Positions 548 through 5,852 of a DNA stretch of 64,000 nucleotides are shown here, one piece after another (position 1 is the first letter of the stretch; every line of letters begins with the position of its first letter). The notes below the pieces were generated by a model. It made no database searches. It was not told the origin of the DNA and was given only the letters and a program-made list of their open reading frames with translations. The position numbers were made by a program, and so were the translations under genes. Source of the DNA: Nonlabens xiamenensis (GTDB lineage: Bacteria > Bacteroidota > Bacteroidia > Flavobacteriales > Flavobacteriaceae); assembly GCF_003865345.1 (NCBI RefSeq), contig NZ_RMVE01000004.1, positions 62,001-126,000 on the forward strand, written 5' to 3'.

Positions 548-1981
548 TTAATTGATTTTGAGCGAATTCATTCTCAATATTTCACCTATCCCATCCCAGA
601 TCCTTTCACTGGCGTGATCTGGCCTTTCAGGATGATTGATAACACCGTACCATTGATGGCAAACAGGCACTGGATTCTCCTTATGCTTTATTAGATCTTT
701 TATTCCCTGATAGATATCTTCTTTTTCATAAGCCCAAACCACAGCATCTTTAGGCATGGTTCTAAAATGCACATATTTATAATTCTGCCCAATATCCCGT
801 ATACCTTTCTTTAATTGTGGTTGCTCATAGTTGGGGTATATCGTCGGCTTATTGTGTATCACAAAATCAAACACCATGCTGCTACAGATATTGACCACTA
901 ATGCAGAATGATGACAGGTATTGACCAATAAAGCAAAGTCCTCTTTGGTGGGCATGATCTGGTTCCACTGCTCACCCATGGGTTTCCATAAAGGTTTAAT
1001 GGGTGTGATCAGATCGGCATATGCTTCCAACACCTGATCGTACCTACCGCTATGATCTACCGGCACCTGACGGAATATAATTCCCAGATTCATCCCCTCT
1101 TGATTAAGTCGGCGCACTGCTGCTGCTGTATCCTCCAGATAATACTGGTCGAGAGGCGATGTGGTCATGTCATCGCCTGAAAAGCAGACGTAGGTTCTCT
1201 TAGGGTCTAGTCCATATTGGGAGCAAAAATCGGCACGCGATACGATCAGACTTTCGTCATAATGGGGTTCAAATTGTGGCGTCCCTGTGACAAAAATTTG
1301 ATCTTCTTTTACTTTAGGATAGTATTGCAGCAGTTGCTCTTTCATCAAATCGGACCAAACAAAATAGTAGTCGGTCTCGATGGTGGTCATACCTTTAGGT
1401 AAATTATCCCAACTATAAATCCAACAAGCTGTAGGGATCCCCAAGTCTCGTGCCGCCAGAATGGGTGCGATTCCTTGTGTAGCGCGCTGAGTAGTACAAA
1501 AAACTAGATCCGGACGATGTTTCTCCAACTGTGCTTTTAGTAACTTATATCGATCAGTACTGCGTTCTGCCGCATTCATTTGATCCATCAGTTGTTGCCA
1601 ACCTTTAGGATGACTGCTGAACCTTTCATGAAATTTCACAAAAGCAGATTTAGCTATGTTTTTAAGGTTATTCCAGCGCAAAGGGAATCGGTAGGTAGGA
1701 TATACATCGTCTTGGAACCGCTTTCGCGAAAGCGCTAACTCCACCCGTTTCCTTGCGTGATTGATGACTGGAGTTTTGGGATGGATTTTGGTGGTGGGAA
1801 TCATGAGTTGCGAATACCCAAACTCCTTTTCCAAATCAAAAACACTGTTGTTCCAATAAGTGATATCAAAACCCTGCGACTCCCCTACCTTTTTAAAATC
1901 GGTAAATGCAAAGTTGCGTAAACCAACACCATCTGGAAAAAGTATAAATATTTTGGGCGTTTTGTTCTGATGTTTAGGCAT
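548..1981 (-). CDS. GT-B-like glycosyl/glycerophospho-transferase family protein
   Basis: About 477 residues with no signal peptide or membrane segment. The middle part (about residues 160-250) reads as the hinge of a GT-B fold, with VFCTTQRA, GIPTACWIYSWDNLP and FVTGTPQFEP. This pattern is seen in CDP-glycerol glycerophosphotransferase-like and UDP-glycosyltransferase-like proteins of capsule loci. A TTG six bases upstream is also in frame, but the ATG at 1981 begins the natural MPKHQN terminus. It carries one copy of the 16-bp iterated palindrome, read as ALSRKR. It is separated from the rest of the locus by the hairpin array. The sugar donor is not predictable, and the GT class is inferred from fold-like motifs only. 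Confidence 0.6.
   Translation of the reverse strand: MPKHQNKTPKIFILFPDGVGLRNFAFTDFKKVGESQGFDITYWNNSVFDLEKEFGYSQLMIPTTKIHPKTPVINHARKRVELALSRKRFQDDVYPTYRFPLRWNNLKNIAKSAFVKFHERFSSHPKGWQQLMDQMNAAERSTDRYKLLKAQLEKHRPDLVFCTTQRATQGIAPILAARDLGIPTACWIYSWDNLPKGMTTIETDYYFVWSDLMKEQLLQYYPKVKEDQIFVTGTPQFEPHYDESLIVSRADFCSQYGLDPKRTYVCFSGDDMTTSPLDQYYLEDTAAAVRRLNQEGMNLGIIFRQVPVDHSGRYDQVLEAYADLITPIKPLWKPMGEQWNQIMPTKEDFALLVNTCHHSALVVNICSSMVFDFVIHNKPTIYPNYEQPQLKKGIRDIGQNYKYVHFRTMPKDAVVWAYEKEDIYQGIKDLIKHKENPVPVCHQWYGVINHPERPDHASERIWDGIGEILRMNSLKIN
1719..1734. repeat. Iterated palindrome copy 1 (exact, coding)
   Basis: Exact CGCTTTCGCGAAAGCG inside the GT-B-like gene. On the coding strand it is read in the phase giving L-S-R-K-R. 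Confidence 0.9.
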
Positions 1982-2073
1982 TACCAAATTTTACGGGTTG
2001 CGAAGATATTTTATTCAGATCATTTGAAGAAGATAATGAATGATTTCTATTTTTCTAGACTACCTACTTATGT

Positions 2074-2682
2074 TATGCTGAGTACTTCGGCAAACTCTGT
2101 ACAGGCGCTGTCGAAGCTGGCTACAAATCTCACAAGCCTGTTCCGCTGTTACTCGCCTTCGACGGGCTCAGGCTGACAATGGAGTTCAGACTGACAATGG
2201 AGCTCTGGATGACAAAAGCTGTCATGTTGAGCTCGTCGAAGCAGGGTTTGAAACCTCACAAGCCTGTTCCTCAGATACTCGCCTTCGACGGGCTCAGGCT
2301 GACAATGGAGTTCAGGCTGACAAAAGCTGTCATGCTGAGCTCGTCGAAGCAGGGTTTGAAACCTCACAAGCCTGTTCCTCTGTTACTCGCCTTCGACGGG
2401 CTCTGGCTGACAAAGGGAGCTCAGGCTGACAAGAGTTGTCATGCTGAGCCTGTCGAAGCAGGGTTTGAAATCTCACAAGCCTGTTCCTCTGTTACTCGCC
2501 TTCGACGGGCTCAGGCTGAAAATGGAGCTTAGGCTGACCAAAGGGTGTCATGCTGAGCTCGTCGAAGCAGGGTTCAGATCCCACAAGCCTGTTCCTCTGT
2601 TACTCGCCTTCGACGGGCTCAGGCTGACAATGGAGCTCTGGATGACAAAAGCTGTCATGCTGAGCTCGTCGAAGTTGGGTTG
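2074..2682. repeat. REP-like hairpin array, left block (about 5 units)
   Basis: Tandem units of about 108 bp. The right-arm core CTTCGACGGGCTC starts at 2157, 2283, 2391, 2500 and 2608. Each unit has a left arm containing GAGCTCGTCGAAG and a right arm containing CTTCGACGGGCTC, a 22-nt imperfect inverted repeat around a loop of about 45 nt holding the sequence CACAAGCCTGTTCC. The first unit is degenerate and the block ends in a half-unit at 2653-2682. Several stop-free frames run through the repeats, but they translate repeats only and are not genes. The array lies between neuB-like and GT-B-like genes of one transcription direction, so it could also fold in the mRNA. Confidence 0.92.
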
Positions 2683-3140
2683 GTATCCTCTAGTTACCAG
2701 CTTTAAGTATCTTGATCCTTTTTATTTATTCTGTTCCCGTACTTTGTATAATTCCTTGAATACAAGGACAGCTTTTCCCAATCTCCGTCAATTAAAGCTT
2801 GCTTTTTACGTCTAGACCAGCCTTTTATTCTTTTTTCCCAGATAATAGCTTGATCAGGATCATCCAGAAATTCTTTGTACCATACGAGTTCCACGGGTAG
2901 TCGTGAGGATGTAAAACCTTTATTCTTACCTGTATTATGTATGGCTACCCTAGCATCCAAGTTTGAAGTGATTCCAGTGTAAAAACTACCATCGCTGCAT
3001 TTTAGAATGTATACACAATAAGCCTTCATTTTACAAAAGAATTTTGATGAAAGTTAGTGAAGTTTGAGTACAACAGATTTGTCTAGTAGCATTTCACCTT
3101 TTATTGATCTCTTTAAACGGAACTTGTCGAAGTTGGGTTG
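2668..3140 (-). mobile_element. GIY-YIG cassette inserted in a hairpin unit, with 15-bp flanking repeat
   Basis: The sequence GTCGAAGTTGGGTTG occurs at 2668-2682 and again at 3126-3140, on either side of the GIY-YIG gene. Other units of the array have GTCGAAGCAGGG at this place, so the TTGGG variant marks both copies as one original site. Deleting 458 bp (one repeat copy plus the insert) puts the next unit core 107 bp from the preceding one (2608 and 3173), matching the 108-bp period. I see no terminal inverted repeats. Mobility is an inference from the flanking duplication. Confidence 0.7.
2703..3029 (-). CDS. GIY-YIG nuclease superfamily protein
   Basis: A 108-residue single-domain protein of the small YhbQ/UPF0213-like GIY-YIG group. 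Residues 4-21 contain the signature pair as VYILKC and FYTGIT. An arginine follows in LDARVAIHN, and the presumed metal-binding glutamate is in IIWEKRIKGWSRRKK, the usual C-terminal basic helix. The family cuts or nicks DNA using a single metal ion. The gene lies wholly inside the insertion that splits the hairpin array, 20 bp from one edge. That context suggests it acts on the hairpin DNA, but this is inference. Genes of this type are common in Bacteroidota and mostly uncharacterised. Confidence 0.9.
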   Translation of the reverse strand: MKAYCVYILKCSDGSFYTGITSNLDARVAIHNTGKNKGFTSSRLPVELVWYKEFLDDPDQAIIWEKRIKGWSRRKKQALIDGDWEKLSLYSRNYTKYGNRINKKDQDT

Positions 3141-3605
3141 AAATCATACAAGCCTGTTCCTCTGATACTCGCCTTCGACGGGCTCAGGCTGACAATGGAT
3201 TTCAGGCTGACAAGAGTTGTCATGCTGAGCCTGTCGAAGCAGGGTTTGAAATCTCACAAGCCTGTTCCTCTGTTACTCGCCTTCGACGGGCTCAGGCTGA
3301 CAAAGGGAGCTCTGGCTGACAAAGGGTGTCATGCTGAGCTCGTCGAAGCAGGGTTGAAACCTCACAAGCCTGTTCCTTCGTTACTCGCCTTCGACGGGCT
3401 CAGGCTGACAATGGAGCTCAGGCTGACAATAGGTGTCATGCTGAGCTCGTCGAAGCAGGGTTTGAAATCTTACAAGCTGGTTCCGCTGATACTCGCCTTC
3501 GACGGGCTCAGGCTGACAATGGAGCTTAGGCTGACCAAAGGAGCTCTGGCTGACAAAGGGTGTCATGCTGACAAAGGAGTTCAGGCTGACAATGGGTGTA
3601 ATTCT
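3123..3605. repeat. REP-like hairpin array, right block (about 4 units)
   Basis: Right-arm cores begin at 3173, 3281, 3389 and 3497, an exact 108-bp period. Arms and loop are the same as in the left block. The block ends in partial arm repeats (about 3540-3600) that alternate CTGACAAAGG and CAGGCTGACAATGG. It stops about 30 bp before the stop codon of the neuB-like gene. Confidence 0.92.
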
Positions 3606-3637: not shown

Positions 3638-4519
3638 TTAAGCCTTTCTGTATTTCAACTTATCGCGTTGTACTTGCTCGATTGGAAGAATATCTTGGGA
3701 TTTAAAAGTCAGGGCTTTATGCACTGCACGCAAGTCTCGGGAGAGTTTACGCAAACCATTGGGTTCTAGTGAAGCACTATGATCCGTCCCTTTCCAAGTG
3801 CGATCAAGGGTATAATGACGCTCGATGATAGGAGCTCCCAAGGTGTATGCGGCTACATCAGCCGCGATCCCCAGGTGATGTCCAGAAAAGCCGATGTGTT
3901 TCACCCTGTCCTTGTATTTTTCATTCAAGGTGGTGATGTCCAACAGGCATATATCTTCAAACGGCACTGGATAGCCGCTGGTACAGTTATATACTACTAA
4001 ATCCTTACCGCGCCCATGCTTCTCAAAAAATTGCACCAATTCCTCGATCTCTTCTTTGGTGGTCATACCCGTGGAACAGTGAATTTCGCCCTGATAATGC
4101 TCACAAAGCCAACCCAGCATCTCATAGTGGTTGTTACAGGCACTAGGGATCTTGATAAACTCTGGTTCCAAAGAAGCAATTTCCTGGGCGCTAGTCGTAT
4201 CCCAAACACTGGTAGAATAAGTGATATCCATCTCCTCGCAGTATTCTTTTAACTCTCGATGTTGTTCAACATCAAACTCCAGGAATTCGCGATGGGCACC
4301 ATAAGTATCCCCGTAGCTATTGACCGGATTAGGGTGTGGTGCATTGTACTGCTCCTCAGTCAATAATTCTTTATTATTTCTTTTCTGAAATTTAACCGCA
4401 TCAGCCTTGCAAAAAATGGCAGCTACTTTGATTAATTCCTTGGCGATTTCCATATCGCCCTTGTGGTTACATCCTATTTCGGCGATCACATAGGGGGCGT
4501 GATAAGTCTTCATAAACAT
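3638..4519 (-). CDS. NeuB-like nonulosonic acid synthase lacking a SAF domain
   Basis: A 293-residue NeuB-family TIM-barrel enzyme that condenses phosphoenolpyruvate with a hexose or hexosamine to make a sialic-acid-like sugar. Visible motifs are VIAEIGCNHKG at the N-terminus, AVKFQKRN, FIKIPSA, CSTGMTT, and a C-terminal GTDHSASLEP. The usual SDH motif reads GFSGHHLGI. It stops after the barrel, about 50 residues short of typical NeuB, so the antifreeze-like SAF domain that caps the active site is absent. ATG codons at 4519 and 4513 are both possible starts. With the downstream phosphatase-bearing NeuA fusion it may use a 6-phosphorylated substrate. The exact sugar (Neu5Ac, KDN or other) is unknown. 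Confidence 0.88.
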   Translation of the reverse strand: MFMKTYHAPYVIAEIGCNHKGDMEIAKELIKVAAIFCKADAVKFQKRNNKELLTEEQYNAPHPNPVNSYGDTYGAHREFLEFDVEQHRELKEYCEEMDITYSTSVWDTTSAQEIASLEPEFIKIPSACNNHYEMLGWLCEHYQGEIHCSTGMTTKEEIEELVQFFEKHGRGKDLVVYNCTSGYPVPFEDICLLDITTLNEKYKDRVKHIGFSGHHLGIAADVAAYTLGAPIIERHYTLDRTWKGTDHSASLEPNGLRKLSRDLRAVHKALTFKSQDILPIEQVQRDKLKYRKA

Positions 4520-4691: not shown

Positions 4692-5852
4692 CTACTCACG
4701 GAATCGTTGGTTATACCTTTCTATGAATCCGCAGGCCTCGCGTATGGCACCTGCAGCACTTTCATGTTGTAGAATTACATCAGCGTGATTCTTGACTGCG
4801 GCTGTGGCGTTGGCTGGTGTAAAAGACCAACCGACGGCACAGATATTGGCCAAATCATTCACATCGTCTCCGATATACGCCATGGAAGAGAAACTCAACT
4901 GGCGATCATGAGCGATACGAGACAATAAGCTGAACTTATCTTTGACCCCCATAAACACATCGTCGATCTTTAATTTTTTCATGCGACTGGCAACGATGGG
5001 TGAATCCTCTGAGGTCATGACCATCACCTTAATGTTTTGCTGACGCAGGATTTCCAACCCCATTCCATCCCGCATATCAAATTTCTTCATGAGTTCGCCA
5101 TCCGCACCAAAATAAACACAGCCATCCGTGAATACACCATCCACGTCCAAGATCAGATGAGAAATAGGAGCATTGCCTTTTTTCCACTTTAAGCGCTCGG
5201 CCAGTAGTTGTTCTACAATACTCCAATCGGTCAGGCTATCGATTTCGGTGAGGCTGTCTTCAGGCATATGTACCAAACCAATATCTCCAGACACGCGATT
5301 TTTAGACTCAAACCATTTCTCTTTCAAAGTCAAGTAAACCGCTCCGTTTTCTAAAAGTAATCCTTCAAAGTCTTGGCGTCTTGGGCGTTTATACAAGTCG
5401 TAATTTTGTGGGGTACCATCGGCATTCCAAGTAAATCTATGGGTTTTTACCACTGTCATGGCACTGTCCTTACCTTCCTGCAGTTGTTGTAGACATAGAT
5501 TGATGTCCTTGGAAGTAGTAAAAGGAGAAGTAGCTTGTAACAAACAAAAGACTTCAAAATCTGGATCCTCATCTCTAATGAAGTCGGCCATTGCCGATTC
5601 TGTACTGGCCGTATCGGTAGCGTTAGATGCCAATCTTTTTACGGCGTGTACTTTTGTGGTCCAGTGGTATTCTTTTTTCACGAAGGCCAAAATGTCTTCA
5701 TCGTCAGTGTATATATAGACATCTTCCAATGTTGAGGCAATAGCAGCGCTTAGCGCCCAGCAAAACAAGGGTCTACCCAGTAATTTCTTTTTATTCTTTC
5801 CCGGTATTCCTTTGGAGCCAGCTCTTAATGGTATAAAGCCTATGGATTTCAT
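4692..5852 (-). CDS. Acylneuraminate cytidylyltransferase fused to KdsC-like HAD phosphatase
   Basis: A two-domain protein of 386 residues. Residues 1-225 are a NeuA-type CMP-sugar synthetase, with IPLRAGSKGIPGKNKK for CTP binding and LLQATSPF. Residues 230-380 are a HAD phosphatase of the KDO-8-phosphate phosphatase type, with LILDVDGVFTDG as motif I, MVMTSEDS as motif II and YIGDDVNDL as motif IV. The same pairing is known in vertebrate CMAS. The phosphatase half could dephosphorylate a nonulosonic acid 9-phosphate before CMP activation. About 170 bp separate it from the neuB-like gene downstream. No sialyltransferase is recognisable nearby. Confidence 0.9.
   Translation of the reverse strand: MKSIGFIPLRAGSKGIPGKNKKKLLGRPLFCWALSAAIASTLEDVYIYTDDEDILAFVKKEYHWTTKVHAVKRLASNATDTASTESAMADFIRDEDPDFEVFCLLQATSPFTTSKDINLCLQQLQEGKDSAMTVVKTHRFTWNADGTPQNYDLYKRPRRQDFEGLLLENGAVYLTLKEKWFESKNRVSGDIGLVHMPEDSLTEIDSLTDWSIVEQLLAERLKWKKGNAPISHLILDVDGVFTDGCVYFGADGELMKKFDMRDGMGLEILRQQNIKVMVMTSEDSPIVASRMKKLKIDDVFMGVKDKFSLLSRIAHDRQLSFSSMAYIGDDVNDLANICAVGWSFTPANATAAVKNHADVILQHESAAGAIREACGFIERYNQRFRE

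Follow-up and report, generated by a model that had tools for sequence, protein, structure and literature searches.

Small stand-alone GIY-YIG nucleases of about 95 to 115 amino acids, bracketed by inverted TGTC/CGTC palindromic repeats and accompanied by gene-less copies of the same repeats, probably constitute a two-part system in which the nuclease is predicted to spread the repeats. On balance, we favour the broader proposal that these nucleases are the predicted dedicated mobilizing enzymes of CGTC/TGTC REPs, and hence an unrecognized class of mobile element that has no transposase and extends over at least eight phylum-level groups. Judged from sequence, we rate this as a new kind of REP system with a putative function. 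The main evidence consists of control open reading frames (ORFs), tree shuffles and a comparison of filled and empty sites.

The window, that is, the whole stretch of 64,000 nucleotides of Nonlabens xiamenensis DNA that was analysed, contains one such gene, located between both arms of one inverted pair within a tandem array (Table 1). The array unit is an inverted pair, TGTCATGCTGAGCTCGTCGAAG ... CTTCGACGGGCTCAGGCTGACA, with the left arm also occurring as TGTCATGCTGAGCNNGTCGAAG. Arms are found at 2110, 2157, 2235, 2283, 2343, 2391, 2452, 2500, 2561, 2608 and 2668 in the left part of the array and at 3126, 3173, 3233, 3281, 3342, 3389, 3449 and 3497 in the right part. The window repeat reads GTCGAAGCAGGG, with the tag TGTC and without a CCA tail. 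On folding, one unit (window 2325-2432) gives a single hairpin (z -2.8); the arm alone, taken either as the 22-nucleotide stretch or as the typed 28-nucleotide arm, folds poorly, and the two arms of a unit pair mutually. A reading of the array as structured RNA was rejected on the grounds that Rfam returned no match at the gathering threshold across the window, array included. The neighbours of the array (window 548-1987, 3638-4519 and 4692-5852) we take to be surface-polysaccharide-like genes; those on its right resemble a neuB-like synthase gene and a cytidylyltransferase gene.

Table 1. Features of the gene-bearing unit and its array, in window coordinates (G004 and G008 are two related genomes).
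Feature	Position	Strand	Basis
Small stand-alone GIY-YIG nuclease gene, 108 aa	2703..3029	-	ORF; PF01541, E = 1.6e-16; AlphaFold model resembling UPF0213 and SLX1
Left repeat arm TGTCATGCTGAGCTCGTCGAAG of the gene-bearing unit	2653..2674	+	Sequence, register
Right repeat arm CTTCGACGGGCTCAGGCTGACA of the gene-bearing unit, inverted relative to the left arm	3173..3194	-	Sequence
15-bp direct repeat, copy 1, GTCGAAGTTGGGTTG	2668..2682	+	Sequence; genome search with up to one mismatch
15-bp direct repeat, copy 2, within a truncated extra left arm (~3119-3140)	3126..3140	+	Ordinary unit arm aligns there in G004 and G008
Array, left part, 108-bp period	2186..2681	+	TRF, 4.6 copies
Array, right part, 108-bp period	3126..3541	+	TRF, 3.9 copies

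The arm core TGAGCYYGTCGAAG is present in 44 copies in the same genome, in three clusters and at some single sites, while the reversed control has none. The two clusters outside the window (G000:C6:263821-264994 and G000:C7:84486-85093) lie on contigs without GIY-YIG matches. This genome holds four GIY-YIG matches, and the motif GTCGAAG is absent from the approximately 3.2-kb loci of the three other than the window gene. A 32-residue GIY-YIG match with an internal stop and no GTCGAAG nearby (L004, G000:C5:660098-660193) is possibly a decayed relative.

The window protein has 124 matches in 41 of 59 related genomes. Ninety loci (30 and 60 further regions), sampled without regard to their flanks, were examined in the Flavobacteriales. 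ORF calling yielded 88 hits, from which two in locus L094, two long ORFs and one gene with a flank of less than 250 bp were removed to give 83; broken genes (for example, that of L020) were excluded. Complementary arms, at a score of at least 14 and within 300 bp to either side, flank 29 of these 83 small GIY-YIG genes and only 3 of 320 control ORFs from the same loci (p = 4e-19). By named repeat types, which were defined after arms had been seen, one type stands on both sides of 45 of 85 genes as against 2 of 306 controls; the other 40 of the 85 have no recognized same-type pair, which counts against the proposal. This 85-row set covers 35 genomes and includes the window gene, missed by ORF calling and added by hand. 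The arm sequences vary by gene (TGTCAGTCTGAGCTTGTCGAAG, TGTCAGTTCGAGCGCAGTCAAGAACA, TGTCAAGCCGTCGCAGGACGGCTTCG, CGTCATTGCGAGCGAAGCGAAGCAATCT, CGTCATGCTGAACTTGTTTCAG and more) and their outer ends, where seen, mostly carry a TGTC or CGTC tag. Chance or general richness in repeats is rejected as an explanation by the same-locus control ORFs and by the within-genome shuffles described below. Nor would any GIY-YIG gene do, as none of six hand-picked genes of other small GIY-YIG groups, taken from plasmid matches (YazA-like genes in an operon from two Bacillota, and four others), has arms.

The type of repeat can be followed on the protein tree, each gene being labelled with whichever repeat type was most frequent up to 400 bp away, irrespective of side; 32 of the 85 rows received no label. 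The 53 labelled genes carry seven repeat types and require 8 changes of type (the minimum is 6), compared with a mean of 35.7 for shuffled labels (0 of 200 shuffles as low). Shuffling labels within genomes gives a mean of 27.2 and a least value of 15, with 0 of 1000 shuffles as low as 8. When one row per genomic position is kept (35 labelled), the count is again 8, against 22.7 (0 of 1000). The tree is built on 106 columns, with many forks unresolved, and T1, T1b, T3 and T6 each fail to form one clade (2 or 3 changes apiece). Among the 15 genomes with at least two labelled GIY-YIG genes, 13 have no repeat type shared between genes (T1, T2, T1b and T6 occur together in G004, for example), while one type appears twice in G018 and G034. 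The tree and shuffle counts together argue that the repeat follows the protein and not the species.

Within the genus of the window, genomes in which a clade is present contain more of its repeat (T1, p =.009; T2, p =.0004; T4, p =.0025; T6, p =.0001), although these p values ignore kinship, include gene-flanking copies and are partly circular, five T4 genomes and the T2 genome G019 having been assigned on the basis of the repeats beside the gene. T4 has 2-7 copies per genome, and flanking copies may explain much of its co-occurrence. Gene number and total repeat number are correlated at 0.75 over the 59 genomes and weakly within the genus (rho 0.36, p = 0.095). None of the four repeats occurs in 17 of the 18 genomes without a GIY-YIG match, which are mostly distant, G017 alone belonging to the same genus, and none occurs in 8 of the 41 that have one. 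T1 repeats persist in several genomes whose protein matches include no T1 gene (20 repeats in G016). Among the 45 T4 sites, pairs that face each other across less than 600 bp are present in G003, G011, G014, G016, G019, G020 and G022, one per genome, and all seven pairs enclose a GIY-YIG gene, that of G019 being missing from the protein-match list. Four stretches with T4 sites and no facing pair (L256, L257, L259 and L260) contain no GIY-YIG gene. In L257 (~2520-2540, genome G019), a T4-type repeat apparently lies in frame within a coding sequence, which we presume to be hisF.

Outside the Flavobacteria, arms (score at least 14, 350-bp flanks, counted without control ORFs) were found at 12 of 15 hand-picked named plasmid loci, a selection from matches in 53 and 33 records. 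The 12 include Sinorhizobium meliloti pSymB, where two genes each have a repeat of their own, together with Azospirillum lipoferum 4B, Novosphingobium aromaticivorans, Rhizobium, Shinella, Neorhizobium and Neisseria; the arms at two Methylobacterium loci look different. A broader set came from a contig scan with a five-protein alignment taken from REP-flanked genes, which gave at least 574 confirmed places. The best 80 of these were kept, and seven loci whose flanks ran off the contig reduced them to 73. Among these 73 of the best 80, arms occur in 49, in comparison with 1 of 310 control ORFs (p = 2e-42), and the 24 without arms at score 14 count against the proposal. Tagged hairpins stand on both sides of 40 of the 73, and of 2 of the 310 controls. 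In these 40 two-sided loci the nearest hairpins precede the matched stretch by a median of 28 bp and follow it by a median of 22.5 bp; the tags point outward in 26. The tagged hairpins of the best 80 number 151, of which 114 have a stem of 8 and a loop of 4, the commonest tails being CCAG (82) and CCAT (39), in agreement with the published description of CGTC-1. The arms of this set are for the most part CGTC-tagged REPs, and their commonest form has an 8-bp stem, a 4-nucleotide loop and a CCA tail. By record titles, the arm-bearing loci of the best 80 belong to Pseudomonadota, 'Deltaproteobacteria', Ignavibacteria, Planctomycetes, Spirochaetes, Uhrbacteria and Deferribacteres; together with Bacteroidota these make at least eight phylum-level groups, several of them represented by one or two metagenome-assembled contigs. 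The typical REP core recurs in 13 of 15 hand-picked genomes of the broad set, at 3 to 98 sites (the reversed control had one hit overall), with no sites in Caenimonas and Ancylobacter. In Tistlia consotensis (G071), REP pairs in opposite orientation are mostly ~54 or ~82 bp apart and resemble REPIN dimers.

Empty versions of the site, which a preliminary description of this DNA had suggested seeking in relatives, do exist. A search with the neighbouring neuB-like protein returned 17 loci at 80-100% identity, and the GIY-YIG gene lies within 1.5 kb in three of them (the window, G004 and G008). It was not found within 1.5 kb at the other 14, among which G017 is bare, while a single decayed hairpin without a gene is left in G014 and half of one in G011; at some of the 14 the next gene differs too. 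The protein tree unites the genes of the window, G004 and G008 (95), and G004 and G008 share the neuB neighbour; the gene is therefore probably older than the split of these three lineages. At a second Flavobacterial slot the gene is present in G001, G020 and G013, and both the gene and T1 repeats are absent in G000, G003, G008 and G017. By eye, G002, G005, G006, G007, G012 and G016 have a RAYT-like gene with its own repeats (for example GCGATGCGTCGCGCCC) at this slot; the Y1_Tnp domain was confirmed there in G016 (L240:741-1445) only. Two unrelated REP systems occupy this one site across sister species. The same slot also holds a Flavo-1 RNA (RF01705) at L241:717-800.

Filled and empty sites were also seen outside the Flavobacteria. 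The gap between sufB and sufC in A. lipoferum 4B contains a REP dimer, the gene and a second REP dimer. Azospirillum oryzae, Azospirillum ramasamyi and strain B510 (93-94% identity) have no gene between sufB and sufC, the first two have no REP at the site either, and alignment of filled with empty sites reveals no clear target-site duplication. The gltA-lpxB gap of S. meliloti Ak57 holds two tandem units, REP-remnant-REP followed by REP-whole gene-REP. The remnant (pSymB, L125 ~1666-1820) comprises the last ~26 codons of a GIY-YIG gene between two REPs; it looks as a gene-less derivative in the making is expected to look, and is the only one found. In Sinorhizobium K101 the gltA-lpxB gap has one intact palindrome tagged at both ends and one decayed palindrome, with no gene. 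Filled and empty sites, together with the REP-bracketed remnant, point to a putative mobile unit.

Genes associated with one repeat type occupy different genomic positions: 11 T2 loci fall into 9 groups and 9 T5 loci into 7, while the five T4 loci share a single position. T1 genes fall into four position groups once L007 is left out, its contig also holding the gene beside L009/L010. REP arrays adjoin the gene in S. meliloti (L126) and G018, as they do in the window. Two identical GIY-YIG genes lie 1036 bp apart in L014, and a pair in L071 is 568 bp apart; both are tandem duplications surrounded by long direct repeats (scores 59-118). A GIY-YIG fragment in G027 lies where its contig ends and has T1 repeats upstream. 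Short GIY-YIG 'remnants', five of them in L087 (G014), were judged to be artefacts of a 149-residue query ORF (L092) running through a REP, because their positions coincide with REPs.

The intact palindrome of K101, at the place where Ak57 has REP-gene-REP units, is also what a free-standing homing endonuclease might leave to be seen. According to this explanation, the REPs would be present for other reasons, and a GIY-YIG parasite that cuts palindromes would be copied in by homologous repair without moving the REPs themselves. Two relatives weakly match phage homing endonucleases (phrog_7168, 3e-5 and 1e-5), which fits such an origin. Two observations, the REP-free empty sites of A. oryzae and A. 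ramasamyi and the tracking of protein clade by repeat type inside single genomes, argue against it, and we regard it as unlikely, though the most serious competitor to mobilization of the repeats by the nuclease.

In the preferred scheme, the REP-gene-REP unit would be the autonomous element, and REP dimers and arrays its gene-less derivatives. The SLX1/UPF0213-like nuclease would recognize and nick its own repeat once this is extruded as a hairpin or cruciform. Repair, with another repeat or the element as template, could then place a copy of a repeat dimer or of the complete REP-gene-REP unit at the break or at new sites, whereby the repeats would spread and the gene would move. Unequal repair might cause tandem arrays to grow beside the gene.

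The properties of the protein are compatible with this role. A profile search with the window protein matched the UPF0213 structure 1zg2 at 4.8e-18, and Foldseek with the AlphaFold model (pLDDT 76, unsure from residue 85 on) returned UPF0213 at 4.6e-6, followed by SLX1 with a probability of 1.00 at E values of 0.006-0.02. Pfam identifies the window protein and those of L125, L074 and L127 as GIY-YIG (L125 also as T5orf172), and finds no Y1_Tnp (HUH) domain in any of the four. One set of residues is invariant across the GIY-YIG alignments, and presumably includes the catalytic residues of the family. In the nine of 15 pairs with a computable dS, dN/dS is 0.03-0.24, a rough estimate with dS above 1 in four of the nine; such low values fit a protein that has been kept functional. 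A phage or defence origin was rejected, the window protein having no match in PHROGs and matching none of the PADLOC families; L073 and L125 gave weak partial PADLOC matches only.

The same fold would suit a domesticated housekeeping nuclease, one that protects replication by resolving or trimming REP cruciforms and remains near REPs through regulation or recombination. The closest folds are UPF0213 and the structure-selective SLX1, and dN/dS is low. Branched DNA is the substrate cut by SLX1-type enzymes, and ANKLE1, also a GIY-YIG nuclease, nicks a plasmid cruciform once (PMC10287932), a further point for this reading. A housekeeping function is difficult to reconcile with the patchy presence of the genes, with their shifting positions (as for T2 and T5), with several clades per genome, or with presence in one species and absence in another whose flanks are ~94% identical. 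We consider it improbable.

The preliminary description had centred on the 15-bp direct repeat of the window, and much of what it reported is borne out. GTCGAAGTTGGGTTG stands exactly on both sides of the GIY-YIG gene (Table 1). The in-register copies start at 2229, 2337, 2446, 2555, 2662, 3120, 3227, 3336 and 3443, with spacings of 108, 109, 109, 107, 458, 107, 109 and 107. Two of these nine copies, the flanking ones, have the TTGGG variant, as had been claimed, and seven have CAGGG; removal of 458 bp does restore a 107-bp step. The 15-mer is not a widespread unit variant, with two copies in the whole 3.68-Mb genome at up to one mismatch. The claim that no terminal inverted repeats are visible was wrong, because the gene sits between two arms of one pair, which are its inverted ends. 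Its reading of the 15-bp repeat as a target-site duplication is not supported either, since G004 and G008 have the gene at the same place without the repeat. In the alignment with these genomes the right copy is an ordinary unit arm and the left copy has no counterpart, and array turnover is therefore likelier than an insertion scar. Furthermore, direct repeats (score at least 14) lie beside 37 of 73 small GIY-YIG genes among the best 80 and beside 48 of 85 in the Flavobacteriales set, compared with 13 of 310 and 10 of 377 controls; because direct repeats so often flank such genes, one is expected here without target-site duplication. Turnover of the array most likely produced the 15-bp repeat, which would then be no footprint of an insertion. 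That a cassette was inserted once into a ready-made array, leaving a 15-bp target-site duplication, is very improbable: the confinement of the 15-mer to the two gene flanks genome-wide and the recovery of spacing speak for it, and its absence from the syntenic filled loci, the frequency of direct repeats at such genes and the REP arms at unit ends elsewhere speak against it. The other part of the earlier proposal, a RAYT-like role of the GIY-YIG protein towards the hairpins, is supported by most tests.

REPs are common bacterial repeats, and one group of them has been described without an enzyme. In Di Nocera et al. 2013 (PMC3733652), REPs of the CGTC superfamily are defined by a terminal CGTC (or TGTC/CCTC) tag, a stem of 8-9 bp and a loop of 4-5 nucleotides, and 'apparently lack a dedicated transposase'; movement by other transposases and the extinction of families are both left open there. 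Among the open-licence matches listed, no title or abstract opening links GIY-YIG with REPs, a description elsewhere being possible, and the word GIY is absent from PMC6006769, from RepRanger (PMC12306157) and from a Bradyrhizobium REP paper (PMC5082802). In a Moraxella pangenome table (PMC9465073), RayT and a GIY-YIG gene are separate, unlinked entries. If our proposal is true, the gap of CGTC REPs without an enzyme would be filled, genes annotated merely as 'GIY-YIG nuclease family protein' would acquire a role, and there would exist a mobile element with a GIY-YIG nuclease as its sole protein. REP systems would in that case have originated on at least two occasions, unrelated enzymes having converged on one architecture and even on one chromosomal slot. 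The CGTC REP question becomes open to bench tests, the candidate being small and expressible and having a matching repeat beside it.

The repeats of the broad set share the tag, 8-bp stem, 4-nucleotide loop and CCA tail of the CGTC REPs, and taxa named in PMC3733652 (S. meliloti, A. lipoferum, N. aromaticivorans and the Neisseriae) have flanked GIY-YIG genes. Those REPs were published without an associated enzyme. The window repeat is called CGTC-REP-like, and not a member, because it lacks a good single-arm stem and a CCA tail. UPF0213/YazA and SLX1-type nucleases resemble the protein described here in sequence and fold (1zg2, 1ywl, 7cq2 and 6seh), but arms were absent beside all six genes checked from other small GIY-YIG groups. 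Free-standing GIY-YIG homing endonucleases are likewise nuclease-only selfish genes with presence/absence polymorphism, whereas the gene described here brings REP ends and possibly dozens of gene-less repeats. Akin to MITEs and their parent insertion sequences, the gene-less copies resemble internal-deletion derivatives of a gene-bearing unit, and the terminal inverted repeats of insertion sequences are present as REP arms; unlike in those systems, no transposase domain and no defined target-site duplication were found. Closest in organization are the RAYT (TnpA_REP) genes and REPINs, which also feature a single-gene unit in inverted REPs that recur in a genome, gene-less REP dimers elsewhere, a patchy distribution and an enzyme clade matched to REP type; TnpA_REP groups have co-evolved with their REPs, according to Corneloup et al. 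2021 (PMC8266576). RAYTs are HUH Y1 transposases whose REPs are tagged GTAG, whereas the protein here is a GIY-YIG nuclease in which no HUH domain was found, and its arms for the most part start with CGTC or TGTC wherever their outer end is visible.
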